A stretch of 64,000 bases of DNA from Cladochytrium replicatum (taxonomy: Eukaryota; Chytridiomycota; Chytridiomycetes; Cladochytriales; Cladochytriaceae): assembly GCA_025526935.1 (NCBI GenBank), contig JAHLKD010000138.1, forward strand, positions 28,918 through 92,917. Direction: 5' to 3'. The notes under the pieces were generated by a model. That model did no database searches, was not told the DNA's origin, and was given only the letters and a program-made list of their open reading frames with translations. Shown here in pieces: positions 25,392-61,771 of this stretch (its first letter is position 1; each line of letters starts with the position of its first letter). The translations under genes and the position numbers were made by a program.

Positions 25392-28300
25392 CTATTCAAA
25401 GTCGCACATAGTGCGGCGCTTCATCTCTCCATACATGTCTTTGTTCACCTTCTCCGACTTTCCGAGTTTCCTTCCATTGACTCCACAAGTCCCTACAACG
25501 GCAGATTCTCTCAGAGCGCTCTCTGGGAACGCCCCCTGAATCCATTGTGTGCACTCGCTTCGCAATTTTGTCCGATCCTTCTGCAGCGCTAATCCACCTG
25601 TTTCCATTCTGTGGAGGCGATGACACTCCTCGTAATAATCAATCACGGTCTGCGGTGGGAGGATCACCCGGAACGGTGGCTTCTTTCCGGTGTAAGCAAC
25701 AATTGCGTTCAGTGTAATATCGTCACAGTGACCTTCCTGCGAATCTACATAGCTCTGAAGAGTGCTAGAGTAATCAGAGTCTCGGTACATTAGCAAGTGC
25801 CGACGATTGAGCAGCATGATCCGCGGAAGGATGAGCGAGTACGTTGCTCGGTCTTCGAAGCGCTCGTCCATAATATACTGATTATCTGCGGATATCTGAC
25901 GGGCGAATGGACCTATTATCTGCGTCGGGTCTTCAAGCCAGTGGACGAGCATGCATGTGATTCCGTCCTCGTTGACAAAAATGTCGTCATCAATGTTGAG
26001 CACGGCGTCCGTCTCGATAAAGTCAATTGTTGTAGTCCAGCGATTATTGAGAGAGTTTTTGGTTTGGTGCAGAATAAAGAGGGGTGGTCCTTTGGGCCGA
26101 TCGGGTTTAAGTGTGAAAGCAGGATTTGGCTTTTCTTTCCCATCTTCGCCAATGTACACATAGTGCGATGCAAAGCCGGTAACCTTCGCTGCCGGGCTGC
26201 CTTCAGGATTGTTCCACACCAATAGGATTCGATCGATCACGTTGAGATACTTTAAACTGGTATATTCTGCGACAGTTGACTCGAGCCATCGTGAACGGAA
26301 ACCACTAGAAACGTGAGCGGTCACAATCACCGTCACGAGCGATCTTCGACTGACATCAGATCTCATGCCGAGGCCTCCGAGCTGGGCACGAAGAGGGTGT
26401 GATCCTGTGAAAGTTGAGTTGATCCAGCGCAAGGATAATCGCTGGGAGAGATGGTGGGCTGTTCGGTAATCACCGCACCGTTTGGATCCCCAAGTATCTA
26501 ACGTGATTTTCCAAGGGTCCATATCAGTGACATTGTTTGCACGGATATCCGAATCAGCACCCTGCTCAACCAGACTCCCTTCATCTGTCGCCGAAATAAT
26601 GTTGCTCGATTGATCCCCGAACAGGTTGGATGTGTGGAACATGTATCCTGAAGCATCGATATCTCCGATCGAAATCTTCGACTTCCCAAAAGAGCCATCC
26701 GAAGGAGTAATTCTACCCAAGTGTGATTTCCAAAGGACAAGCTCCTGAGTGCTTCGAGCGTGCGCAAGTAATGTGGTGAGAGCCTGCGGATCCGTAAGCA
26801 TATTGTCGTCATCGAGATACACAATCCACCCGTGCTGGACTTCGTCCTCCCCACCGCGCTGATCGTTCCGAAGATCCTCCACCACCATCTCATGGAGTCT
26901 GTCGACATACGTGTTCATCGGATAATGTGTTTCGCAAAAGCAGTTCAGAAATTTGGTCCGTTCCTCGCTTTTGCTAAGCGGCGGAGCGTTCGCACAGTTC
27001 TTCTCCGGTGAACCACCGCAACTGCGACACGGTTCCATCTTATCAAACTCGCTGTAGAGGCTCTTAATGAGCCGAACCTGCATCGGTGCCCTGACGCCCG
27101 GAGCGGTCCACAAACTCGTTGCATCGTCTTGCGCGGCCCATCGTGAAGCTTCTACTTCCTCAATCGCAACCGTTCCAGATTGTCTTTCTGCTACTCTAGC
27201 AGTTCCATTCGCAAGGTAGCTGTTGAAGCTCTCTCGATCGTCGGTGACGACCAGGTGTCGAATGTGCGGGTGCGACTGGATCATCACAGACCTCCTGGCG
27301 TCATGGAAGAACTTTGGGCGTCCAGAAGTTCGCGTGAGTATATAAACAGGGTCGTTGTTGAAAATCGGATCTGTATCGTCGTTGATACTTTGGCAATCGT
27401 AATCCGATTGGTGTGGGCAGTTAGTACGGTACCGGAACGGATACATCCTTGTTGGTCCCGAAGGTTGTGCAACGGCCGATAGCGTAGGAGCTGCTGGCGG
27501 GACATTCGAAGACTTGAATCCTGACCGGAAGTAAAAGAATAGGTGGTTGTACAGATTTGTGGACTGCTCCGAAACTCCTCTACTCCTACATATGGCCATA
27601 TGTTAGATTAAAATTATGGTTCATCCCTTTTAAACCCACCACCCATGAGCTAGGTACACTGGCTGATTCGGGCACTTGACTTCCCGACGAGAAGCTGTAA
27701 ACTGATAGTTACACCCACATGGAAGTGGATGAAGTGAGTCCGGATGTACTCGGAAGAAACTGTTGATGACTAAGAAATAGAAAGCAATTAGACGACTGAC
27801 AAAGTGCACCTTCAAACTTACAATCCTGTTCACCCCATCTAGCTTTCTTGAATCCGATATTCCTCGCAGTTCTAACTGTCGTATTCACATACATTTCCGT
27901 GAACCCAACCTTCCTCATCTTCTCCAGATCCATTAGCACGACCCCGCCGTTGAACTGGTACGTCTCCGTCTGCCCCGGTTTCGGACAGTACTGATTGAGC
28001 GATGGATCATAAAGCTTGCTTCGTGATGGCACATTCCCGCAGAACAATCCTGGTGGCACGACCCACTCGAAACCCAAGGGCCAACACAGGTTTGGGAAGT
28101 ACTGGCAAATATCACCTTGATCCACAGACATCCCGATAAACTGGCTGTTGCTAAAGAAACGTCTCCAGCACGGCGTGATATCCTGCACTGCTGTTACGTC
28201 ATTATCGACATACAATACTCGAGCAAACACCGAATCCGGCACTTTCTCATCGATCGCCTTTCCATTGACTTTCGGCATAAACGCAAGTCGTGCATGATGA

Positions 28301-29556
28301 GCCTGCAGTATCTCTGAAAGGAAGAACTTGCAGTGTGCCGACAAGTGGATCCCAGGGTCAGAGAACGCCATCACGGCGTGGCCGTACCTCTCACAAAGTC
28401 CATGATCATACACCAAAAATCTCACAGAGCTAGCCACATTCTTTCCACCTTTATCTAGGAACACAAATCCTTCATCGCTCCTCGTCGTCTCGTTTGATGT
28501 TCCGGGCAGAATCAGTAGTTCGTCGTATATCGAGTCCTCGAGCCCCCGCGGCACGATGAGATGGAAATAGAATTTGCTTCCGGGATTCGCAAACCTCATT
28601 ACCGATCGCACCAGTTGTGCAGCATGCGGGAGTCTGTTCCGATCAAAGATCAGAGCGAGACTGATTTCACCCGGTAACCTCTCCTTTCCGACGTCTCCGA
28701 TCGAATCGGATCCAAGCCGTTCTCGGATTGATGCGCGAAGATTAGAAGCAGATTTGTAGTAGTAGTCCGCTCCACCTCGATCAGCGAGGTTCCAGACCAA
28801 CCACATCACCATCAAAAGGCTCAGAAAATACCTCCACACATGCCGTCTGAACGTTCCAGAGTTTGGCGCGTGAAACATGGCTTTCCGTCCCGTAGCACCG
28901 CTCCCGAAGGCCAGGAGCATCTCACAAGGGTTCATACACTGCAAAATTGAACAAACATATCAGAATGATTTCCACAAACCACTCGGATCACAAATCCAAC
29001 CCACCCCAAAGTCACCTCCTCTCGATTTTTCGTACGCCTCCGCCTCATTCCCCGCCTTCTTCACCCGCCCCATCGTAAGCAAACCCACCGCCGCCGTCTT
29101 CGCTGCCCCGCACACTCCACCTCCCGCGCCGACCACAGCCCTCGCACTTGCAAATGCCCCCAAAAGCCTCCCAATAATGCTCCTCGCGTCCCGCGCGCGT
29201 TTTGTCTTCACCATCGGAGTCTGTGGAGGTGAGATCCCGTTCCCCCCCCTCTCCTCGTCTCCCTCCCTCGCGCACTCGAGATCCAGACGCGTCACGTCGA
29301 CCTCGAGCATTCCGCGTTCTGTCGTGGAAGTCGCGGGAACGGTGGATCCAGTGATTAACACGCTCATCGTTTGGGTTGTGCTATATGAGATCGGTTGGAT
29401 ATTTGGTTGGACCAGTGCGGATGTGGCGACTGATCGCGAGCCACGCACAGTCGCACCCATCATGCTGATATTGGCATTGCTGTTCGAGCGCGCTACAACG
29501 GATTGCACGCCCTCTTTCCTGCGCTGAGTCGTGTTGTTCCCTAGTAGCACGTCCAT
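25392..29556 (-). CDS. Predicted fused glycosyltransferase, GT8 then GT64, ~1330 aa
   Basis: Type II membrane glycosyltransferase, probably in the Golgi. Exons 29005-29556, 27822-28938, 27640-27769 and 25392-27585 sum to 3993 nt in one frame. Residues 1-~215 are Ser/Thr-rich and cytosolic. About 220-236 is a single membrane helix (L-S-L-L-M-V-M-W-L-V-W). A GT8 domain follows with V-L-Y-V-D-N-D-V-T-A-V as DxD motif and F-N-G-G-V-V-L-M-D-L. The second half has a GT-A-like part with Y-L-D-D-D-N (about residue 857). After it comes an exostosin-type GT64 domain with N-I-D-D-D-I-F (about 1131) and C-D-D-I-T-L-N. If the last intron is not removed, there are instead two genes, 27630-29556 (602 aa) and 25392-27599 (735 aa). 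The downstream protein would then lack any membrane anchor or signal peptide. Acceptor and sugar donors are unknown. Confidence 0.75.
27586..27639 (-). other. Inferred 54-nt intron joining the GT8 and GT64 parts
   Basis: On the minus strand the donor is GTGGGT, the same hexamer used by the first intron of this gene. The acceptor is TAG, and a CTAAC branch-point-like motif lies about 20 nt before it. Removing it skips the in-frame TAA at 27630-27632 and keeps the reading frame. Confidence 0.65.
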
Positions 29557-30093: not shown

Positions 30094-33000
30094 TCACATT
30101 CCCGCACTTCCCCGATCTCTCCTCCTGCTCTGGAACAACCCAAACATCTTCCCCTTAACCCTCCTCCGTTTCCTCTGTCTCGTCGCCATCCTATATACGA
30201 CCGCGTCCTCAAGCTCGCTTCCGAATCCTCCCCCGCCACCACTGTTAAACGATCCCGTGCTCGCAAGCTGGTCCGCAGGCCATCCCTGCCACAACCCGGT
30301 CCCGGCAACGTCTCCAGACAAGATGAGTGTGTGCTCGAGAAGGATGGCGTCTTCCTCAGTCTCTGCTCCAGAAAGCAACCGGGAGTTCGCACGGAGAACG
30401 GATCCAGCGCCAAGCACAAGTGGATTAAGCGAAAACTGGCCCTTCGAGTTGATGTGACAAATCACCGACGCTCGGTCCACACACGCATCATCGTGGATGG
30501 TAACAAGATCTGGCTCCGTCATCATCGGGTCGCCGCCGGTAGGATATAAACAAACACGCTTTCCAATCTTGGCTCCAAGCATTCTAAAGAACGCAACAAT
30601 GTACCATGAGCCGCGGACAAGGTCAAGGAAATCGTGCCGAGCGTGCTGGAATACAATAAGAATTTGCCACCGCTGGCAATAGCTCGACTCGTCCCAATTG
30701 TACTGGCCAACCTGTCGCCGTCCATGAAGCGTCCATTTGGCAATGATCTCAAGGACCAGCGAAATTGTAACCCATGACCAGTACAGCACAATATAGCTTC
30801 CAGCAAGTGTAGCGTATCCAATTCCCTCGGCCAATCCAAAGTTCTTGTTGTCCGGGTTCCGAATCACATTGTTTCCAAACGTTCTGAAAACGTAAGCTGA
30901 AGCCTGGATCGCACCAACGAACGGCATGGCCTTCATTGCTGCAAAGATCGCTGACAGCACGATAGTATAGAAAGCACAGAACCACATCGGATACACGAAA
31001 TATTTTGCCTTGCGCTGATAGAACGCCCGTCCGAACGGCATCAACGTGTCCATCCTTCGCGCTTCAACAGGGTTGCCAGCGTCCCAGAGCACCGCGCCAC
31101 CATTTTTGCTTCCAAGCCAGACCGATCCGTCAGGGTACCCTGTGTCGCGCTTTGCAAGTCCTCCGCTTCCAAGCACCGTGGTCCGTCCGATGTGACTTCC
31201 AGGCAGCAACACGCACCGATCCGCAACCATCGCTCCAGCGTCGATACTGATATGTGCAGATCCATCCAAGTCAGTTGGAACAACATACGTCCTAGATCCA
31301 AACACAACGTCGTCGCCGACAGAGAATAACTCGTGCTCGTACAAGAACAAACCAGTTCCTGGCCAATAGATTCGTTTCCCGCATCGTGCGCCAAGTGCTC
31401 GGTAAAACATGCTCGTAAACTCATAATGCTTCCCAAGAAGCCCGTAAACTCCTCCGAGTGATCCGTCTCCAAGCAACTCTTTCATGACAAATCGCCTAGT
31501 AAGTGCCCACTGGCTGCTGTTTTCTCCCGGTTTCGCGAGACCCAGAACTGCCCTCTTGACGAAGAGCACCATCGCCATGTAAACAAACGGAGACACCACC
31601 TCCCTCGCAACCGCAGCAAGTACCTTGAGCGCAATACGATCCGTCTGCGCAAAGTACACCACGATGGAAGGGAAGTTGGTCGTGTACCGGTCGCCATCGC
31701 TTCCAACTACACCGAGCAAGTAAAGGGCAGCACCCCAAGGCACCATCGATACAAGGTTCACAAGGATGATCAACGGGTAGCCGACAAACATCTGCATAAA
31801 CAGCCCAGGTGCTGGCAATAGCACCCTGCAAAGCGCCTGATACGAAGGGTGGCAATCTCGAAGCTCGTAACTTGACGACAACGGCGGGAAAGCAGTGTCC
31901 GGTGGGATGTCTGCTCCGGGCGCAATCACCGTGCTCAGATTCACAATCACACGGTCCGAGATGTAGATTGGCGTAAGTACCATGCACCCATTCTCCATCG
32001 CAAAAGGTCGCACCCTCGAAGCGTCGAACGCACAATCGTCGCCAATTTCGACCAAGTCGTACTCTCCAATCACAGTCGATCGGTCAAACCTGGAGTTCTG
32101 CCCAATACGGGCGCCCATCAGTCGGAGGTACATCGACATCATCCTCGAGTTTGTCGAAAAGATTCCGCGTCCACAAAGCTTAATGATCTGATCCGCCAGC
32201 CACCATCGCAAATAGTACGATCCCCACAACGGGAATCGTCCCGCGCGGTAACGCCCAATGATCAACCACTTTGCTCCGATTCCAATAAACGGCATCATCA
32301 GCTTCACGAAGAACAATGTCACAAGAAGCACTGCCGCGAGCAACTCGAAGAACTTGAGGTTGGTTGGGTAGTACGCAGTCTCGGGAACAGCGGCAAACAT
32401 AAACACAAGGCTGTGTAGGAACGCCAAAAGGTTCGCCATCAAGCTCCAGTAAATAAGTGATCGCAGTGGCCGGAACAACGCAATGGGAAGGATCTGGATC
32501 CATAGCGCCGCGAAAGACGTCGAGGACTGCGCTAAACGAGGTGGAGGCTCGTAATCTGGGCTTCCGGACTGATGCGCGTCTCCATCGTCACCGTCCGCCA
32601 TCGAATCCACAATGAGCCCTGCGATTGCCTCGACCGTTCTGTACTTGAACAGCACCGAAGGCTTGAGATCGACTTGCGCAACCTTACGAAGCTTGCTAAT
32701 TACTCGTCCTGCAGACATCGAATTGCCTCCAAGCATGAAGAAGTCAGAGTCCGCACCGATCATGAATTCCGGCTTCAATCCCAGCACGTCCCTAAACACG
32801 TCTGCGACGGCCTTCTCCGAACGCCCTTGCTTTCCGCCAGCTGCGCCGACTCCTGGTTTCGCAAGACTACCCTCGAGGGTCTGGAGGTCGACTTGCCCGT
32901 TTTTGTATCGGGGGATGAGGTCCACCACAAGCATCTTGACGGGCACATCGTAGTCATGCACCCTCTCACCAACAAAACGACCGATGTCCACCGCTGTAAG

Positions 33001-35686
33001 CGTTGAGCCAGGAAACAGCTGAACCAGCGCAATGAGCTGATCAGGATAGGACTTAAGCAGCCCTGCACCAACAACAACGTCCTGCACCTCCGGAATCATC
33101 CTGATGCATTGAAGAGATGATTCTGGGTTTGCAACAATCGGATAGCAAGGGATCGGGTCATTGACCGTTGCAGTGCGGGGAGGGCATCTGGGTGCCTCGT
33201 AAAGACGCTTGTGAGGCATAACCGAGTCCGTCAGCTCCACAATACCGAAGCGCTTGGCAAGGTTGATACGCAGGGGTTTGTTTGCTTGGTTCTTGGGAAG
33301 ATCGTTCATGAACACAATGAGCTGGGGCCACTTCGATGGGTGGAGCGTCTTGGCTGCAAACCTGAAAATTATTCATTCAACTATGTTCAAAACGACTTGC
33401 GGTAATGACACTCACGTCTGAAGCTCGGAAAGGTCCAAGCGACGAGTGCCTTCCTCTTGCACAATCACCATACCGATCGTCTCCTGAAGCACGTCGTGCG
33501 GAACTACAAACGCAAGACAATATCGCACACGGGGATGCGCAAGTACCGCATCCTCGACTTCTACAGGTGAAATAATCTCACCACCACGGTTGATGACTTC
33601 CTTCGATCGACCAGTAATGACTATGAAAGCTTGTTAGTCGACAATCAGCCTGAAATGAAAACCTTACAGAGATAACCATCCTGGTCTAGGTATCCCATAT
33701 CACCAGTGTTGAACCACCCATCAGCCGTGAAAGCCTTCTTGTTAGCCTCCGCGTCTCCCTCGTATCCGTGGAATAGCGGCTCGCCTCGAACAACAATGTT
33801 ACCAATCGTCCCCGACTGCACAGGCTTATCGTCGCCTCCAAATATAGCAATCTCCGGACCCACCGAAACACCAGATGTTCCAGGCCTCTCGAGCGCGTAC
33901 CCGATCGGCGGAGTCGAGATCGGCATGCACTCCGTCATACCGTACGATGGAAGCACACAGCTTCCTACAAAGAAAGTCCGCAAGTCCACCGCCAGGGACG
34001 GGAGAAGTCCACCACCAGCGTTACAGATCATGCGGATGCCAGTATTGCGGGCAATGCCACTGGGGTATCGCTCTCGACCTTCGAGCAAGATCGCTTGGTG
34101 CATAGTGGGCACGGCGTAGTACCACGTAGGGGGCAAAGCAGAAGAGTCAAGGAGATCCCAGAACACAGACGAGTCGAAACCAGACGTGACAATAACGGAG
34201 CCGGAGGAGAGCATTGGGGCGAGGAGATTTCGCACAATTCCGCCGACGTGGTACAAGGGCATCATGTTGAGGTTGACGTCGTTGGGCTTGAGGTCCCAAG
34301 AACGAGCAACACAAACTGCACCAACAACTAGTGTACGAAGGGTGTAAGGCACCGTCTTCTTGTTTCCCGAAGTTCCTGAAGTCCGCAGAATTAGAGCAAT
34401 GTCTTCGGGACCATTGTGAATGTCCAAGAACTTTAAAAAATGACGATAAGCGTAAAAGTTCTTCAGAATGATTAGAGTGCTTACCTTATGCTGGGAGTGA
34501 GCCGCGGGTTCAGGGAATTGGGGTTCTAGGGTAAACAGACCCGATACCGCTGGGTCTGGCTGCAAAATCAGCAGCTGGATCGAATGTCTGCGCAGCTCGT
34601 CACCCAACTCAGGATATTGCTAAATGAAACAGTAGATTAAAAACTGGCCCGAAATTTCTTTCAAACGCTTCTCTCTTCTCAAAACATACCTCAGTGAGCT
34701 TACTGGTTGCAATGAGGGCACGACACTTCAAGCTGACAACCTCATGAATAATTTCATCTTTCGTGCTGGACGGATTCATTGGGACAGCCGTGCAAGTCGA
34801 GAGCACCAAAATCAACGAACTGGCTAGTTCCGGTCCTTCAGGAACGACAATGGCGACTCTGTCCTTTCTGTAGATCCTCACAGCTCCCATCATACCTGGC
34901 GCATTATACACGAAATTCTTGAGCATGACGTGGTACAACGGCTTCCTATGAATTGTGACAGGCATATCCTGGTTGTCGATGGTAGGCTCTAGGATAGCAG
35001 GGTGGTTTGTCCCAGACAACAAGTCGACAAGCGAACTGAATTTCAGGGTCCTAGCGACCACAGCACCTAAGTGATGCGATTTAGCCAACCATGATATTCA
35101 CCGTTCCATTTGCTCTTCTCATCCCCCTTTCCTCGCGTGGACCTCTCTCTTAAACTGTCGTTCTCTTTGCTTACATACCAGGATGGGTATTTTCATGTTT
35201 CGCCGTTGAATTGAGCCGAGCGAGGCCGGCCTCGTTCAAAGCAGTGGTAGGCTCTACGCGCATAGAGTTTCGAGTGTTGTTTGCTGGTGCCATAGTGTAG
35301 GCCATTGACTGTGGTCTCGCCATGGACGTTCTATGAATACTCAGGGACGCAGATGGTCTTCTGTTGTCAGCATTGTAAGAAGGTGGTTGCAAGTATCCCT
35401 GAGACTGTTGGTAGCCAAACATAGACTGCCTCTGCTGTTGTTGCTGGTGTTGCTGGGTGGGAGGGTAAGAGGGAGGGTAGGCGGGTGGGTCTCTCGAGTA
35501 TGAAGGTGGGGAGAATTGTCTGGCCATGTTTGACATTGGCGGAGCGCGGGGACGGTTTCCGGAACGGTTACTCCGCGGGGCAGAGTTTGAGCGCTGAGGT
35601 TGTTGAGATTGATTCGAGTAACCAGCAGAGGACTGGTTATTCTCGTCTATGGGATAATAGTTTGGGCTGCGGTTGTAGTTATCCAT
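30094..35686 (-). CDS. Adenylation-carrier-membrane synthetase of poly-lysine-synthetase type, 1751 aa
   Basis: Exons 35179-35686, 34690-35066, 34485-34619, 33668-34430, 33416-33620 and 30094-33361 sum to 5256 nt. The ATG at 35686 is chosen because the later open frame starts with TTG just before a splice acceptor. Residues 1-169 are Gln/Pro/Ser-rich and disordered. About 170-790 is an AMP-forming adenylation domain (L-R-T-S-G-T-S-G-N-K-K, Y-G-M-T-E, W-F-N-T-G-D-M-G-Y). A carrier domain follows, with the phosphopantetheine serine at Ser877 in L-G-G-N-S-M-S. The rest (about 960-1751) alternates membrane helices with three hexapeptide-repeat acyltransferase-like blocks. This order is that of epsilon-poly-lysine synthetases (Pls/VibA type), which activate an amino acid and polymerise it without condensation domains. 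The substrate cannot be read from the sequence. It belongs in a membrane. Confidence 0.9.
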
Positions 35687-50994: not shown

Positions 50995-51573
50995 TGTTAA
51001 ACAAAGCAGTGATCTGGATCCTCAGCTTGTGTGTGTTGATTCACGAGTTAATGATAACAAGAGATGAATAAAGAAGATTGCGAGTCACAAGTGCTAGCGC
51101 AAGAGAACGCTCCTTGTGTGTATCGCCACAGGCTCCTTAAATAAGTTACTGTCGTTTGGCTTTTCCTTCTGGAAGCTCTGGATCACAGCGATCAGGTTTG
51201 ACTTTTCATCTCACATGCGTAGCGAAGCATAATCATAAAAAATTAACTGTGCATGAGATCTAGCTCTCATCAACAGGATTGTATGTTTCCCACGAACGTG
51301 GGAATCATATGTAAACCTTGATCTGATCGGGCTTCACTTCTACAAGTGGATAACAGAAAAGTAATGACAGTTTACTACACTTATGGCTGAAATAAATACA
51401 ACCCATGAAGAAATAACCGAAGGTGTCCAAACTCGTAATAGATCATTTATATGCTTTAGTTCAATAGTTCGAAATGTTGCTTGGTGAAGAGTGACATTTC
51501 TGTATATCAGGCGTTTGTGTTTTGTACTATCAATGACTGGATTGGCCAAGTCCATCAAACGAAATACTTAACA
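50995..51573 (-). repeat. Single LTR of the younger copia family, reverse orientation
   Basis: It starts TGTTAAACAAAG and ends ATACTTAACA on the plus strand. Apart from small differences it is the reverse complement of the roughly 600-bp LTRs at 56774, 57456 and 62478. It sits inside the old relic. The flanking 5-mers do not match, so the site has been rearranged or the LTR is not a simple recombination product. Confidence 0.85.
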
Positions 51574-52879
51574 ATTAAAGGCTATGGAGATATTGCACTT
51601 GTTTTGTCAAATGGTTCAATAAAACACATTCAAAACGCACTTTTTGTTCCTGATTTAGAGGATACACTTATATCTGTCCATAGCATCATCGGGGATGAAG
51701 GTGATATAGTCAGTTTTACCAAAGACAAAGTCTATTTGTCAAACAAAGGAACTAAACAATGTGTTACCATTGGTTTAAGACGTGGAGGTTTATATTATCT
51801 TCATGGAAGTTTGGATACTACTAATCCGTTACTTAAACACTCTTCCAAAATAGGTGCAGCTATTTTGACGAATCTTTCTAATTCTGCACTCTCTGTTGGC
51901 AAACTGATTGTTTTACCTGGTACCACTACAATCACTGCCCAAGAGCAGCAGACAACCACATCTGGTGTAAGGTTTGACACAGTGAAGGACAACAATGTTT
52001 TCCCAAAAGATTCTAACAAAACTAGAGATTACGGGGGTGAAGTTTTAGACGGAGCTTCATCTGCAACATTAAGTCTATACTCCCAAACAATGGCTGATAG
52101 TGGAGTAAACAACATTTCAGCTGTGACCATTAACAAATTAGCTAGATTACACCAGCAATTTGGTCACATACATTTGCGAAAAATCCTGCAAACTCTTCTC
52201 TGGGAAAGAAACTGCCCAAAATCAGGAGTGATGCACTTGATTTTGTTAACTTGTCTATTTTACAGAACTGCATGATTTGCAATCAGACTAAGGCTGGACA
52301 AACTCCAATTTACTCAACGCTAAGTCCAGCACTGAGGAAATTATATCGCCTACATACTGATGCAGTACCAATTGTCAGAAATGGCACATCAATAGGTCAC
52401 TGGCAGATTATTGTAGATGAATACAGTTCTCACATCACAATCTACTTCTTGCAACGAAAGAGCGAAGCCTCTCATAGTATGCTAAGACACATCGCAGATG
52501 TTGAAAATAGGTTTCTGCCACTTCACGTCTATGAAGTGAAATCCGATTCTGGAGAACTATTGTCAAACCAATTCTTGACTTGGTGTAGTAACAAGGTACC
52601 ACGCATACATGCCCATCCTTCACCTGCATCAGTCAAAGAGCTGAATGGTCTTGTTGAACAGAATGTCTGTTCAATGAAGGAGATGTACAAGTCTATGCTG
52701 AAAACTGCTGGTCTTCCACATACTTTACAGTTCATCAAATTTGCCATCCTTTATGCTGGGACTGTCAAAATTCCTGTTTACCATTCTAGAACTAAGAATG
52801 TACCACATGCTGTTTACTTTGACAAGCTGATTGATCCGGCAATCATTCACACCTTTGGTACCCTGGTTAGTCTCTGGAT

Positions 52880-54802: not shown

Positions 54803-56773
54803 TCAAGATAGTATATTAAGTGAAGACTGACTGACTAGCCCCAACGAGCCCCTGTGTTTAAGGTATAATTTACTTCCAAGAGGTTTAGTTAAGATGTCCG
54901 CGATCATATCAGAAGTATCCATATGGTGTAACTCCTGATGTTTCTGTTCAACTTGGAGATTCACAAATCTCTCGCGAACGTCCATGTGTTTGGTCCGTTT
55001 GTTGTTGAACAGATTGTTTGCGATAGACTCGGTGGATTGATTGTCTTGCCATAAACGGAGCGGATTGAACGACGTAATTCCAATACCCGTCATAAGATTT
55101 TTCATCCACTTCATCTCACGCGATAGTTCGTTCAGCGCATACAGTTCGGCTTCCGACGACGAGGCTGCAATAGTCTGTTGTCGAATCGACTGCCAACTGA
55201 TTGCCGCATTAGCGAACATTACCACGTAACCGGTTCGTGAGTATCTATCTGCATCGCCCGCCCAGTCTGCATCGGCATAACCTTGTGGGTTGTTAGCCGA
55301 ATCAAACATGTAGAGACCGTCGGGTCTTAGCATCGGAGACGTGATACCAGTCCGTGTATAGTGTAAACCGTAATCCCAAGTACCGAGTAAATATCGTTGT
55401 AATCGATAGAGAGCCTTTGATTCTGACTGTCGAGGATCAATCTGATGTTGTGCCAAAATATTGACTGCGTATGAAATATCCGGTCGTGTCTTAGTCGCCA
55501 CGTACGATATCTTCATTAACATTGATCGAAATTGTGTTGCCTCGGCATCGGACAGTGTTGGTGTGGTCTCATCAAAGATATATGATTTTGACATCGGTGT
55601 TTTGGTCGGTTTGATGTTGGTACCCCATAAATTCGCTTCTTCGAGAATCTTCTTTACGTACAATGCATTGCTAAGGAAATATCCTTCCGTTGTCTGCAAT
55701 AACTCCATTTTCAGAATCCATTTCGCCTTCGAAGTACTGCCTACTGTGAACGAAGTTTCCAAATCGGTCTGAAACCGATGATATGCGTTTGGATCTGTGG
55801 AAAAATGTAGTATATCATCGACATGAACGGTAGTGTGTTCGCGGGTATTATTTGTTGGATTGTATCGCCAGAAATGACAGATGTCTGCAATATTCCGCAC
55901 GAAACCAACACTGAGATATTGTTTCCAAAGAGTTTTGTACCATTCTCGAGCTGCCTGGTGTAGACCGTACAGACTTTTGATAAGTCTGCAGACGATGGGT
56001 CGATTCCGGAAATCTACTCGTCCGAAACCATGAGGGAGTTCGACGTAGTTCTCTTCTTCCAGTATTGCATTGAGATATGCACCCTTGATATCAAACTGGA
56101 ATATGATCATGCCGACTAATGCTGCTAATGCAATCAGAAAACGGATCGTGGACGTTTTCGTAACTGGAGAATAGGTTTCATCGAAATCCAATCCTTCAAT
56201 CTGTGAAAATCCTCGTACGACCCAACGTGCTTTGAATCGAGTAATATTGCCATGTTCGTCAAGCTTATATGTGAAAACCCATTTGCCCGATAATAAATTC
56301 CGTCCATCAGGTAAAAACGTTTCGGCCCAAGTATTGTTGCCGACTAGTTGTGTAACTTCCTCCTTCATCGCCGCTAACCAGAATGGAGCCTCATCGGATC
56401 GTGATAAAGCCTCACGAAGAGTCTTTGGTGCAGTCCGTATATTTCCATTCGCAATTGGTTTGTTGGATATGAGGAATCGGCCTTCAGGGTCCAATCGATA
56501 TTAGGAACGGACCGGGTAAACAAGGAATTTTGTTTCCTTTTGGCGTTCGACAAATTTGCACTTGCTTGACGTTTTCGTTTTCTTGCTGCATATGCTTCGT
56601 CGACATCTTCTCCAATGAATTGAAGATCACTTTCGAGTTGTGCATCATATTCCTCTACAGGAGATACGGAAGACAAATTCGGAGATTCTTCAGTAATGGA
56701 TTGTGGAGTCGATAAATCAGCATTTGGATCATAATCAGCATCGTCTGGGTCATCATCGTCTAGTCCATGTAAA
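54803..56773 (-). pseudogene. Copia copy C, pol 3' part (reverse transcriptase and RNase H)
   Basis: The 563-codon open frame ending at 54803 encodes the reverse transcriptase (F-D-E-T-Y-S-P-V, F-D-I-K-G-A-Y-L-N, V-H-V-D-D-I-L at the active site). It also encodes RNase H (A-A-S-S-S-E-A-E-L-Y-A-L, W-Q-D-N-Q-S). This is the only complete reverse transcriptase-RNase H block in the window. Upstream, the frame shifts by one base near 56460. At 56773 the copy is cut by the LTR of copy A, in the acidic linker after integrase. Gag and integrase of copy C are not in the window. Confidence 0.9.
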
Positions 56774-58054: not shown

Positions 58055-58105
58055 CAATAGTTACGAATCGTTGCTTAACACATTTCTTTGGACAACAACG
58101 ACAAG

Positions 58106-61100
58106 ATGGGTTCAGGATCGAATGACGCCACATCTTCGCGGCCGAAGCCATTCACCGGTAAAACGCTGCAGGATTTCGATCTGTACATGGAACAAGTGCA
58201 GACTTACGCAAACTTACGTGGCGGCGCTGGCACTATGCTTCTCCAAGAACCAATGGCTCTTCCTGATAGTCCGAATTACGAGGCGGAAGGAAATCGCCCA
58301 CAGCGTCCGATAGTCATCGCCGGAGCTGCTGGCGGAGCTGCTAACGAAGCACGAGCACAATGGGAAGCAGAACTACGTGAACATTTGGCGATCGTCACAC
58401 ACAACAGTCACTTACGTACGCAATATCGTGCTGAGATGCAAGATTACCGTGCACAACAAGCGGACAATAACGTCGCAGTTGGAATTCTATGCGAATGTTT
58501 CCCAAAACGCGACATGAATCGAGTCAGAGCTTATGCGTCAGCAAAAGGCAAAGTCGATGGACTTCGCCGAATTTTCAGTGCTGGCGGTCAAGCTCCGATC
58601 GAATCGTCTATGTGGGAGCAACGGCTGGTAGATCTGAAATGTACGAACGGTCAGTCGGCAGAAAGCGTTCAGCAGTTTGTGACCGACCTCACTGAGTTAT
58701 TCGAACTCAAACTGAACTCTTTACCGGACGAACTCGTAATCAAGGATCTACTAAACCGGTTAGTCGCAAAAATCACGATGCAGACAATTGAACTACGGAC
58801 CCTCGTACCTTTTCTCGGAAAAATGATCACTTCTGCGTATGCCGAATGGGAACCGGCGTTAATACAAGATCCAATTGATGCTGCAAACCCGAATGCTCCG
58901 CGACCATTCCACCAAAAGCCAACGCATTACTTCGAAACAGTGTCAAATATCTTGACCGACCTAAACCAATTGGTCCAACTCAACGTCACCATGGATGCCG
59001 GTGGGCCGAATGGGACAAAGAAGGCCATGAAGGCAAAGGCGAAGAAAGCGAAGGCGAAAGCGAAAGCCAAGGTTGCGAAGTCGGAGGATATTTGTACCTT
59101 GCATCCAAACTCATCTCACACCAATGCTCAATGCCGTAAGCAGGGTGCCTCGGGTGGCTCAGGCAGTAGCGGTGGGAGTAGCAGTTCCACTCGGACCAGG
59201 CAGTCGCAGGACTCCAGGTCGTCCACATCTTCTTCTGCAAAGAAGACAGATCTCACATGCAATTTCTGTGGCAAACGAGGACACAAGCAGTCGGCGTGTA
59301 AACGCTATCTCACTGCAAAGAGTCTTTGTTTAGACACGGATTTTCGTGCATTCATTGCCAGCCGTGGCGATGCAGGTGATGATTCGTCGGAGGACGAATC
59401 TACCGCCAAACCGGTGTTGACCAAGAAGGTAATCTTTGACCTTACCCAACCTACTTCTGTTGATAAAGATGCTGACACATACATCGGAAATATGTTTTCG
59501 ATAGTGAACGCACACTCGGCACAGAAGGTTGTCCGTGTACATGTTCAAGCAAAGGATCGTGTGGGTTTGCTTGATACAGGCGCAACTGTTTGGATGACAC
59601 CTAATCGTCATGCCTTTAGTTCGCTGACGTATACGAATGACGAGGACGTGGTGGAACTAGCGGATAGTCATACAATTCCAGTTTGTGGTTTTGGAGATGT
59701 ATCTGTAGTTTTACCCAATGGGCGAATTAAGATAATACACAACGCACTTTATGTTCCTGATCTCGAAGACACACTTGCATCAGTGTGTAGTATCATTGGA
59801 GACTCCGGGGACATTGTGAGTTTCACCAAAGACAAGGTTATCCTCACGCATGGTGATACGGATGAACATGTTATTATTGGGCGACGGGAAAGAGATTTGT
59901 ACTATCTCTATGCTGATGTTAGTACCGTCGGAACTCACCAACCGCGGCATGCGATTGCTCAACGAGCTAAAGCAGTAGCGGTATCCGCAGAAGGTCTCGA
60001 TCAGTCGATGGACTTTACGTCCGGTGTACGATCTTCTCACGCGATGGGTCTCGATGTAATGTCAGACAACAACATTCGTCAAACGAACGATGATGAATGT
60101 CAACGAGCATCTCAAGATACAGTTGGAGTGAGCACCAACTTATCGCCAGTGACAGTACACGAACTTGCAAAGTTACACCAGCAGTTTGGTCACATCCACT
60201 TACGGACAATCTTTCGAACGGCAGAGAAGCTCAACATCAAAATGCCCAAGGTTGAACCGGATGCATTCAATCTTGTCAACAAATCAATTATGCAGAATTG
60301 TTTGGTCTGTAGTCGCACGAAGCTGAAGCAGAAGCCGATTTATTCTACAATAAGTCGAGCTCCGAGGAAACTTTTCCGTCTGTTTTCCGATGTCGTACGT
60401 TTAATCTACGACGGACAGAAGAAGAGATATTGGCAGATCATTGTCGACGAACAACCTCGTTTCATCACAATCTACTTCCTGAATCGAAAGAGTGATGCGG
60501 TGGATAGTATGATTCGACATATCGCTGATGTGGAAAATCGCAATCACCCATTACACGTTGCTGAACTACGTTCCGATTCAGGAGAATTGATTACTAAACG
60601 GTTGATCCAATGGTGCAATACCAAGATTCCTCGCATCCGCGTCCACCCAGCTCCTCCGTCAGTAAAGGAACTCGATGGTCTATCAGAGCGGAATATACAA
60701 TCGATCAAGTATATGTCGGACGCGATGCTGCTACAAGCTGGACTACCACGAACACTTCAATTCGTGCAACTCTCCATCCTATACGCTGCGGTCGTCAAGA
60801 ACGCTACTTTCCATTCAGCTGTGAATGCGATTCCGTACTGTGCTTACCTTGACAAGCGGATAGATTTGGCAACTATCCACGCCTTTGGAACACTCGTTAG
60901 TTTGTGGATCTCACACGAACAAAGGTTGGCGCGCAGAATCCGAGACAAGTCTGAACTAGGTCTGTTTCTCAGATACAAGGGTGAAGACCTGAAGATCGTC
61001 ATAGCACTCAATTTTCGGACAAACACAATAGGCGAATACTTCCATGTTACGTTCCACGAGGGAGTTTTTGTTGGTTATAATCCTACCCGACAGTTACTCG

Positions 61101-61771
61101 ACGATCTTACGGTACAATATCCACTGAAGGCCGGGACATATTTCGATGTTGATCAAATACCAACCGGGGATCAGGGGGTGCAAGAGACGACTGTTGAGTT
61201 TGTCTCAGACAATTTCCCGATTTCTACCGTTGCAGACGAAGAAATCGATGAGGATATAAACGACGACCCCATATATTACCGCTTAGAAGAAGCCGGTGAC
61301 ATGCATGTTGTTGAACATTTACATGGACTAGACGATGATGACCCAGACGATGCTGATTATGATCCAAATGCTGATTTATCGACTCCACAATCCATTACTG
61401 AAGAATCTCCGAATTTGTCTTCCGTATCTCCTGTAGAGGAATATGATGCACAACTCGAAAGTGATCTTCAATTCATTGGAGAAGATGTCGACGAAGCGTA
61501 TGCAGCAAGAAAACGAAAACGTCAAGCAAGTGCAAATTTGTCGAACGCCAAAAGGAAACAAAATTCCTTATTTACCCGGTCCGTTCCTAATATCGATTGG
61601 ACCCTGAAGGCCGATTCCTCATATCCAACACAACCAATTGCGAATGGAAATATACGGACTGCACCAAAGACTCTTCGTGAGGCTTTATCACGATCCGATG
61701 AGGCTCCATTCTGGTTAGCGGCGATGAAGGAGGAAGTTACACAACTAGTCGGCAACAATACTTGGGCCTGA
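58106..61771 (+). CDS. Copia copy B gag-pol, open for 1221 codons
   Basis: Ty1/copia polyprotein. The ATG at 58106 follows the leader, and the open frame 18 nt upstream begins TTG. Order of parts: gag with a central helical region; a Lys/Ala-rich basic tract and Ser-rich linker; a C-x2-C-x4-H-x4-C zinc knuckle at about 59260-59300; aspartic protease with L-L-D-T-G-A-T at about 59570; pre-integrase (L-H-Q-Q-F-G-H-I-H-L); integrase with R-S-D-S-G-E-L; and an acidic linker. The frame ends prematurely just before the reverse transcriptase because of one extra T near 61768, compared with copy C. Apart from that and the truncation by copy D it looks recent. Confidence 0.9.
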   Translation: MGSGSNDATSSRPKPFTGKTLQDFDLYMEQVQTYANLRGGAGTMLLQEPMALPDSPNYEAEGNRPQRPIVIAGAAGGAANEARAQWEAELREHLAIVTHNSHLRTQYRAEMQDYRAQQADNNVAVGILCECFPKRDMNRVRAYASAKGKVDGLRRIFSAGGQAPIESSMWEQRLVDLKCTNGQSAESVQQFVTDLTELFELKLNSLPDELVIKDLLNRLVAKITMQTIELRTLVPFLGKMITSAYAEWEPALIQDPIDAANPNAPRPFHQKPTHYFETVSNILTDLNQLVQLNVTMDAGGPNGTKKAMKAKAKKAKAKAKAKVAKSEDICTLHPNSSHTNAQCRKQGASGGSGSSGGSSSSTRTRQSQDSRSSTSSSAKKTDLTCNFCGKRGHKQSACKRYLTAKSLCLDTDFRAFIASRGDAGDDSSEDESTAKPVLTKKVIFDLTQPTSVDKDADTYIGNMFSIVNAHSAQKVVRVHVQAKDRVGLLDTGATVWMTPNRHAFSSLTYTNDEDVVELADSHTIPVCGFGDVSVVLPNGRIKIIHNALYVPDLEDTLASVCSIIGDSGDIVSFTKDKVILTHGDTDEHVIIGRRERDLYYLYADVSTVGTHQPRHAIAQRAKAVAVSAEGLDQSMDFTSGVRSSHAMGLDVMSDNNIRQTNDDECQRASQDTVGVSTNLSPVTVHELAKLHQQFGHIHLRTIFRTAEKLNIKMPKVEPDAFNLVNKSIMQNCLVCSRTKLKQKPIYSTISRAPRKLFRLFSDVVRLIYDGQKKRYWQIIVDEQPRFITIYFLNRKSDAVDSMIRHIADVENRNHPLHVAELRSDSGELITKRLIQWCNTKIPRIRVHPAPPSVKELDGLSERNIQSIKYMSDAMLLQAGLPRTLQFVQLSILYAAVVKNATFHSAVNAIPYCAYLDKRIDLATIHAFGTLVSLWISHEQRLARRIRDKSELGLFLRYKGEDLKIVIALNFRTNTIGEYFHVTFHEGVFVGYNPTRQLLDDLTVQYPLKAGTYFDVDQIPTGDQGVQETTVEFVSDNFPISTVADEEIDEDINDDPIYYRLEEAGDMHVVEHLHGLDDDDPDDADYDPNADLSTPQSITEESPNLSSVSPVEEYDAQLESDLQFIGEDVDEAYAARKRKRQASANLSNAKRKQNSLFTRSVPNIDWTLKADSSYPTQPIANGNIRTAPKTLREALSRSDEAPFWLAAMKEEVTQLVGNNTWA

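Follow-up and report, generated by a model that had tools for sequence, protein, structure and literature searches.

We conclude that the chytrid Cladochytrium replicatum has a gene in which a GT8 and a GT64 glycosyltransferase (GT) are fused, and that a third, GT2-like domain lies between them. The gene occupies the minus strand at positions 25392-29556 of a 64,000-nt stretch of contig JAHLKD010000138.1, hereafter called the window, and its four exons splice into one frame of 1,330 residues. The decisive evidence for the fusion is a second copy of the gene in the same genome; that the protein carries three GT-A domains we hold with high confidence. The original prediction, made from the letters of the DNA, had proposed a fused GT8+GT64 pair. 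The fusion stood and the pair did not, since the part preceding GT64 is itself a catalytic-looking domain of the GT2-like superfamily, and the protein therefore reads GT8, GT2-like, GT64.

The two open frames were found where they had been placed, with Pfam matches to both families, and removal of three introns gives the in-frame join and the length of about 1330 residues that had been proposed. Exon 1 (29005..29556) provides the N-terminal 184 residues, an ATG-started open frame in both copies, in which a Pfam scan found no domain match. Intron 1 (28939..29004; GTGGGT...CAG) measures 66 nt, against 65 nt in the second copy, and exon 2 (27822..28938) after it encodes the bulk of the GT8 domain together with a candidate anchor for the membrane. 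Intron 2 (27770..27821; GTAAGT...TAG), with 52 nt against 51 nt in the second copy, splits the GT8 domain after WGEQD. Exon 3 (27640..27769) continues GT8 (INSFF...LPCGCNYQ...AHGW) and includes H598. The two halves are joined across intron 3 (27586..27639), in which the 54-nt length (61 nt in the copy), the GTGGGT donor, the CTAAC motif and the TAG acceptor were all present as originally described; if this intron were retained, the window protein would end at 602 residues. Exon 4 (25392..27585) then runs as a continuous frame through the presumed end of GT8, a linker, the GT2-like domain (26364..27362, residues 675-1007), the GT64 domain (25500..26330) and the stop.

The second copy, on contig C29 (L009, 3444 to 7601), is found by each half of the gene used as a separate query, and shares all three introns as well as the in-frame join AHGW|SRG. 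Over 1,321 aligned codons the two proteins are 86.8% identical, with nonsynonymous divergence (dN) of 0.076, synonymous divergence (dS) of 0.859 and a ratio of 0.088. By exon, the amino acid identity and dN/dS are 75% and 0.136 (exon 1), 88% and 0.069 (exon 2), and 87-90% and 0.036-0.098 depending on the region (exon 4: 0.036 for its first 60 residues, 0.098 for the middle domain, 0.086 for GT64), and in exon 3 all 42 residues are identical (dN/dS 0) despite 14 third-position differences. In the genomic DNA alignment of the copies all seven exon gaps are multiples of three (6, 3, 3, 9, 9, 9 and 3), as against one of the five intron gaps (1, 2, 3, 2 and 5). DNA identity is 0.60-0.63 in introns and 0.73-0.89 in exons; identical aligned columns number 39 of 66 in intron 1, 31 of 54 in intron 2 and 33 of 61 in intron 3, where the gaps measure 2 and 5. 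The exons are thus under purifying selection while the introns drift, and at a dS of ~0.9 the fused architecture is probably of long standing in both copies.

Could the locus instead hold two adjacent genes, one for GT8 and one for GT2-like/GT64, 30 bp apart? Read without splicing, the exon-3 frame of the window runs into a stop (TAA, 27632-27630), and the second frame offers its next ATG, in frame, at 27599, which accounts for the separation reported originally; a stop after GT8 and an in-frame ATG are likewise seen at the joint of the unspliced copy. Lying just within intron 3 in both copies, this ATG is a possible start of a separate GT2-like/GT64 protein and counts against a single gene, as does the origin of both copies in one genome, so that they do not represent independent species. 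The two-gene reading, however, needs GT8 tails (AHGWWV in the window, AHGWYVIQRTTRFFSSDK in the copy), second-protein starts (MAICR-SRG in the window; in the copy MVPR-SRG or a start at a more upstream ATG) and gap lengths (30 bp and 4 bp) that differ between the copies, whereas splicing gives the identical joint in both. With 30 or 4 bp between two genes there would also be almost no space for a terminator, a promoter and a 5' leader, and the separate GT2-like/GT64 protein would be without a membrane segment, as judged by hydropathy. Because the spliced joint is the same in both copies and the two-gene features are not, we consider the fusion, as a gene model, nearly certain, and a pair of neighbouring genes very improbable.

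The GT8 Pfam match reaches 46.3 bits (E 5.4e-12, cut-off 24.3) on the spliced region, compared with 37.0 bits on the unspliced frame. Among solved structures the GT8 domain comes closest to LARGE1 (E 2.6e-7), followed by xyloside xylosyltransferase 1 (XXYLT1; E 0.0043), and a profile of the two copies led to the same two proteins. Both copies have DND at 429-431 and H598, the latter a candidate, by position, for the C-terminal metal-binding histidine (C-His) whose role in GT8 is described in an excerpt of PMC7185993. The same excerpt classes the GT8 domain of LARGE with the GT8 xylosyltransferases, which makes xylose transfer a reasonable guess and no more. Six GT8 loci elsewhere in the genome gave chance-level tblastn matches to this domain (best E 0.068) and did not help to place it.

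The middle domain is characterized by TRTSGRP, YLDDDN and GDYR motifs and a Cys-rich insert; the original prediction had noted a D-D-D-N motif in it and called it GT-A-like. Its relatives were sought in a family with TRTSxRP and GWIxFLDDDD motifs: GWIx[FY]LDDD was turned into a degenerate DNA pattern for scanning uncultivated viral contigs, and 21 of the 24 stretches with the pattern encode a relative of the window's middle domain (tblastn E <1e-3). An alignment (A2) was built from 17 viral sequences, leaving out three weak ones (L030, L031, L033), one with its start cut (L015) and three duplicates (L021, L028 and L034, identical to L013, L026 and L022). A profile of these 17 members, containing no fungal sequences, scored 106.7 bits against the window protein and 109.6 bits against the copy. 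Since every sequence found through the pattern must contain GWIx[FY]LDDD, the profile was rerun without the pattern columns, and still gave 85.2 bits (window) and 84.3 bits (copy); the best scores among 1,000 shuffles of residues 601-1030 were 3.6 and 4.0 bits. Fifteen columns are invariant when the two fungal sequences are added to the 17, seven of them within the pattern and eight outside it (R11, T12, R15, F19, Q29, N150, P220 and D298 in domain numbering). PF00535 is matched at E 0.01 by 16 of these 19 members. A later scan with A2 confirmed 22 of 70 stretches, 20 on contigs already known and two new (L058, L071) that were kept out of the alignment. Within the fungus's own genome, a search with the middle domain up to E 10, in which three candidates were scored, returned just the two copies.

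Members of the family also occur in prokaryotes. In a collection with one genome for each bacterial or archaeal species, the pattern marked 45 stretches, of which 10 could be confirmed, eight in Flavobacteriaceae (Flavobacterium itself included) and the others in Ca. Shapirobacteria and Verrucomicrobiales. By eye, frames next to one of the Flavobacteriaceae members and next to that of Shapirobacteria resemble other glycosyltransferases, and the Shapirobacteria member also adjoins a frame resembling the ATPase of a capsule-type ATP-binding cassette (ABC) transporter. Most of the viral pattern frames (20/24) span 164-283 residues and four are longer; among three long frames that were scanned (L012, L025, L027), L012 and L025 carry another GT2-type domain before the GT2-like one. 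Judged from its sequence, then, the GT2-like domain is also a module of multi-domain glycosyltransferases on uncultivated viral contigs.

In a predicted model the middle domain has a GT-A fold like that of solved GT2 enzymes. The fold list, covering residues 76-414 of the exon-4 model, for which the folding alignment (A4) used 11 of the 17 sequences, includes SpsA, WrtF, TarP, TarS and the chondroitin and hyaluronan synthases; by sequence, heparosan synthase B is among the nearest solved relatives. The mean predicted local distance difference test score (pLDDT) of the exon-4 model is 48.8; its middle part can be used in blocks only.

The GT64 domain has a Pfam match of 100.8 bits (PF09258, cut-off 21.3, E 1e-28) over profile positions 3-237 of 245, and EXTL3, EXTL2, EXT2 and EXT1 as best solved relatives. 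The motifs NSLNNR, IDDD (NIDDD in the gene) and C-D/E-DI (HCDDI) align with those of EXTL3. Another GT64 gene of the same genome, on contig C12 (L010:2213-4513), has NSLNNR, DDD and CDDI in common with it; the C12 gene stands by itself as a frame of 766 residues that ends in GT64 and lacks a GT8 match. Alignment A3 placed the C12 GT64 against a wrong part, and the sequence was left out. Residues 1 to ~498 of the C12 protein have no Pfam match at E <0.1 and could conceal another domain.

We suggest, as the likely explanation of the gene as a whole, a Golgi type II enzyme with three glycosyltransferase domains that adds several sugars to one glycan. The protein would be anchored in the membrane, with hydrophobic N-terminal stretches followed by a GT8 domain of the LARGE/XXYLT1 kind, the GT2-like domain and a GT64 domain of the exostosin kind; it is probably located in the Golgi with type II topology, and its three parts may add successive sugars to a shared acceptor. 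That at least two of the domains act on one glycan is a somewhat weaker expectation, which we nevertheless favour. GT8 enzymes are retaining and GT2 enzymes inverting. With GT64 described as retaining (PMC7185993), an alpha-beta-alpha series of linkages is possible; domain order does not imply the order of sugar addition.

In a hydropathy scan (Kyte-Doolittle, 19-residue windows, threshold >1.4) hydrophobic stretches were confined to the first 236 residues, at 131-149 (exon 1, Gly/Ala-rich) and 218-236 (exon 2; 28783..28839). The GT64 half has no membrane segment of its own, which supports the earlier argument that the fusion supplies the anchor. We judge residues 218-236 to be that anchor because the usual location is directly before the catalytic domain.

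Several observations weigh against the proposed enzyme. In the window protein the exon-1 stretch and residues 218-236 both score 1.43, and in the copy the exon-1 stretch is ahead with up to 1.60 compared with 1.57, leaving the topology unsure; two membrane spans would alter the side that the enzyme faces, and the part of the protein preceding 218 is long for a Golgi type II enzyme. It is this uncertainty of topology that lowers our confidence in the overall explanation. Further, the GT8 match, which spans residues 423-583 and positions 100-222 of the 253 in the profile, ends before the joint, so that completion of the GT8 fold by the start of exon 4, although probable, is something we infer. 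Searched by itself at E 0.01, the middle domain of the window protein gives no Pfam match. Structure prediction, proposed originally for all three GT-A-like parts, succeeded for the middle one in blocks and failed for the others: the GT8 model (mean pLDDT 36.4) was left unused, and the GT64 half of the exon-4 model was of low confidence and unusable.

What such an enzyme might make is a matter of more tentative judgement. By analogy with the exostosins and with LARGE, which works with two sites, the three sites could act in turn so that a heteroglycan chain grows by a repeating unit; the resemblance of GT8 to LARGE1, the exostosin family membership of GT64, the nearness of the middle part to heparosan synthase B and the chondroitin and hyaluronan synthases in its fold list all point this way. 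Domain kinship is, however, no predictor of polymerization, as SpsA, WrtF, TarP and TarS are equally near or nearer, and the three-GT chlorovirus protein A111/114R is proposed, in an excerpt of PMC9614988, to make a fixed core and no polymer, a role described there as preliminary. The new glycan polymerase of the original prediction is one of several conceivable functions, and we hold a repeating polymer to be doubtful as the product. Unlikely, and put forward as speculation, is the broader idea of a new type of polysaccharide synthase, in which three GT-A sites would build a fungal heteroglycan of trisaccharide repeats with a middle site drawn from the bacterial and viral surface-polysaccharide gene pool.

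A different product would be a sphingolipid head group of the glycosyl inositol phosphorylceramide (GIPC) type, with GT8 adding glucuronic acid to inositol phosphorylceramide and GT64 adding the next sugar. Plant IPUT1 (GT8) and GMT1 (GT64) work consecutively in this manner (PMC7980081), and UDP-glucuronic acid is a plausible donor because the genome has UDP-glucose dehydrogenase-type genes (two PF03721 matches). Yet the relatives of this GT8 among solved chains are LARGE1 and XXYLT1, and the scheme has no role for the third domain; we hold it to be rather improbable. Nor is it likely that the fused protein uses at least one catalytically dead domain as a scaffold, a role reported for GT47 in EXTL3: the DxD-type motifs (DND, DDD and DDD) and the family motifs around them are identical in both copies in all three domains, and dN/dS is low throughout (0.069 in exon 2, with the middle and GT64 values given above). 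With motifs intact in both copies and dN/dS low, no domain looks dead. The three-domain enzyme adding several sugars to one glycan remains our preferred explanation.

In our searches of the openly licensed literature of PubMed Central, neither the GT8 + GT2-like + GT64 combination nor, in agreement with the original prediction, a GT8+GT64 pair in one protein was found described; by kind, the fungal gene belongs with the multi-domain glycosyltransferases. Several known systems come close to it in part. LARGE1 and LARGE2 (GT8 + GT49) likewise begin with a xylosyltransferase-type GT8, and a second GT-A domain follows it in the chain (PMC7185993), whereas the fungal gene has GT2-like and GT64 domains after GT8 and no GT49 among its Pfam matches. 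EXT1, EXT2 and EXTL3 (GT47 + GT64) share a C-terminal GT64 in a multi-domain membrane enzyme; in the fungus GT64 is partnered by GT8 and the GT2-like domain, and GT47 is absent from the gene's Pfam matches. A111/114R of chlorovirus PBCV-1 unites three glycosyltransferase domains in one polypeptide, but is viral, with proposed donors of galactose, xylose and fucose, and the excerpt of PMC9614988 does not mention GT64. The bacterial and viral TRTSxRPxxF ... GWIxFLDDDD family agrees with the middle domain in motif order, invariant columns and profile score, while the fungal copies differ in having the Cys-rich insert and two other flanking GT domains. Plant IPUT1 and GMT1, finally, combine GT8 and GT64 activities successively on a glycolipid (PMC7980081), although as separate proteins and without a third GT domain.

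The surroundings of the gene were also recorded. The window from 0.8 to 35.6 kb, the GT gene included, forms a duplicated block, with 23 of 25 matched 1.5-kb bins inverted and collinear with C29 at 383-416 kb, and further patches lie beyond it; segmental duplication, duplication of the whole genome or a hybrid origin may be the source of the block. At 30097-34607 (minus strand), which is upstream of the GT gene, an AMP-binding domain (33648-34607) adjoins a phosphopantetheine-binding domain (in 30097-33315), and the long tail of this locus, part of which is duplicated on C29, resembles by eye hexapeptide-repeat acyltransferase units. Pieces of retrotransposon pol (RVT_2 / Pol_BBD; Ty1/copia-like) lie in the right part of the window, at 51481-52272 (+), 54806-56494 (-) and 58088-61768 (+). 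Elsewhere in the genome, 22 chitin-synthase matches (gene pieces) and seven radial-spoke matches fit a flagellated fungus, and GT47, GT49, GT8 and another GT64 match sit on other contigs. A 605-residue frame at C46:133882-135417 (L079:1336-3150, minus) combines a sulfotransferase (PF03567, E 1.6e-9) with a GT47 exostosin domain (E 1.2e-25), and the same order occurs at C86:95434-97006 (L102) over two overlapping frames, perhaps separated by an intron; no PF03567 matches other than these two were reported in the genome search, and the pairs suggest sulfated glycans in the fungus. Within ~56 kb of C46 (133882-189809), GT47, GT49 and two GT8 matches may make up a loosely clustered set of glycan genes.

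In animals, alternating glycans are made by tandem glycosyltransferases, among them LARGE, the exostosins and the chondroitin synthases. A fungal protein with three catalytic-looking domains in the present combination would broaden the design space of tandem glycosyltransferases and would point to a glycan not yet known in flagellated fungi. With the domains on one chain, a single recombinant protein would suffice to test both the product and the order of sugar addition.

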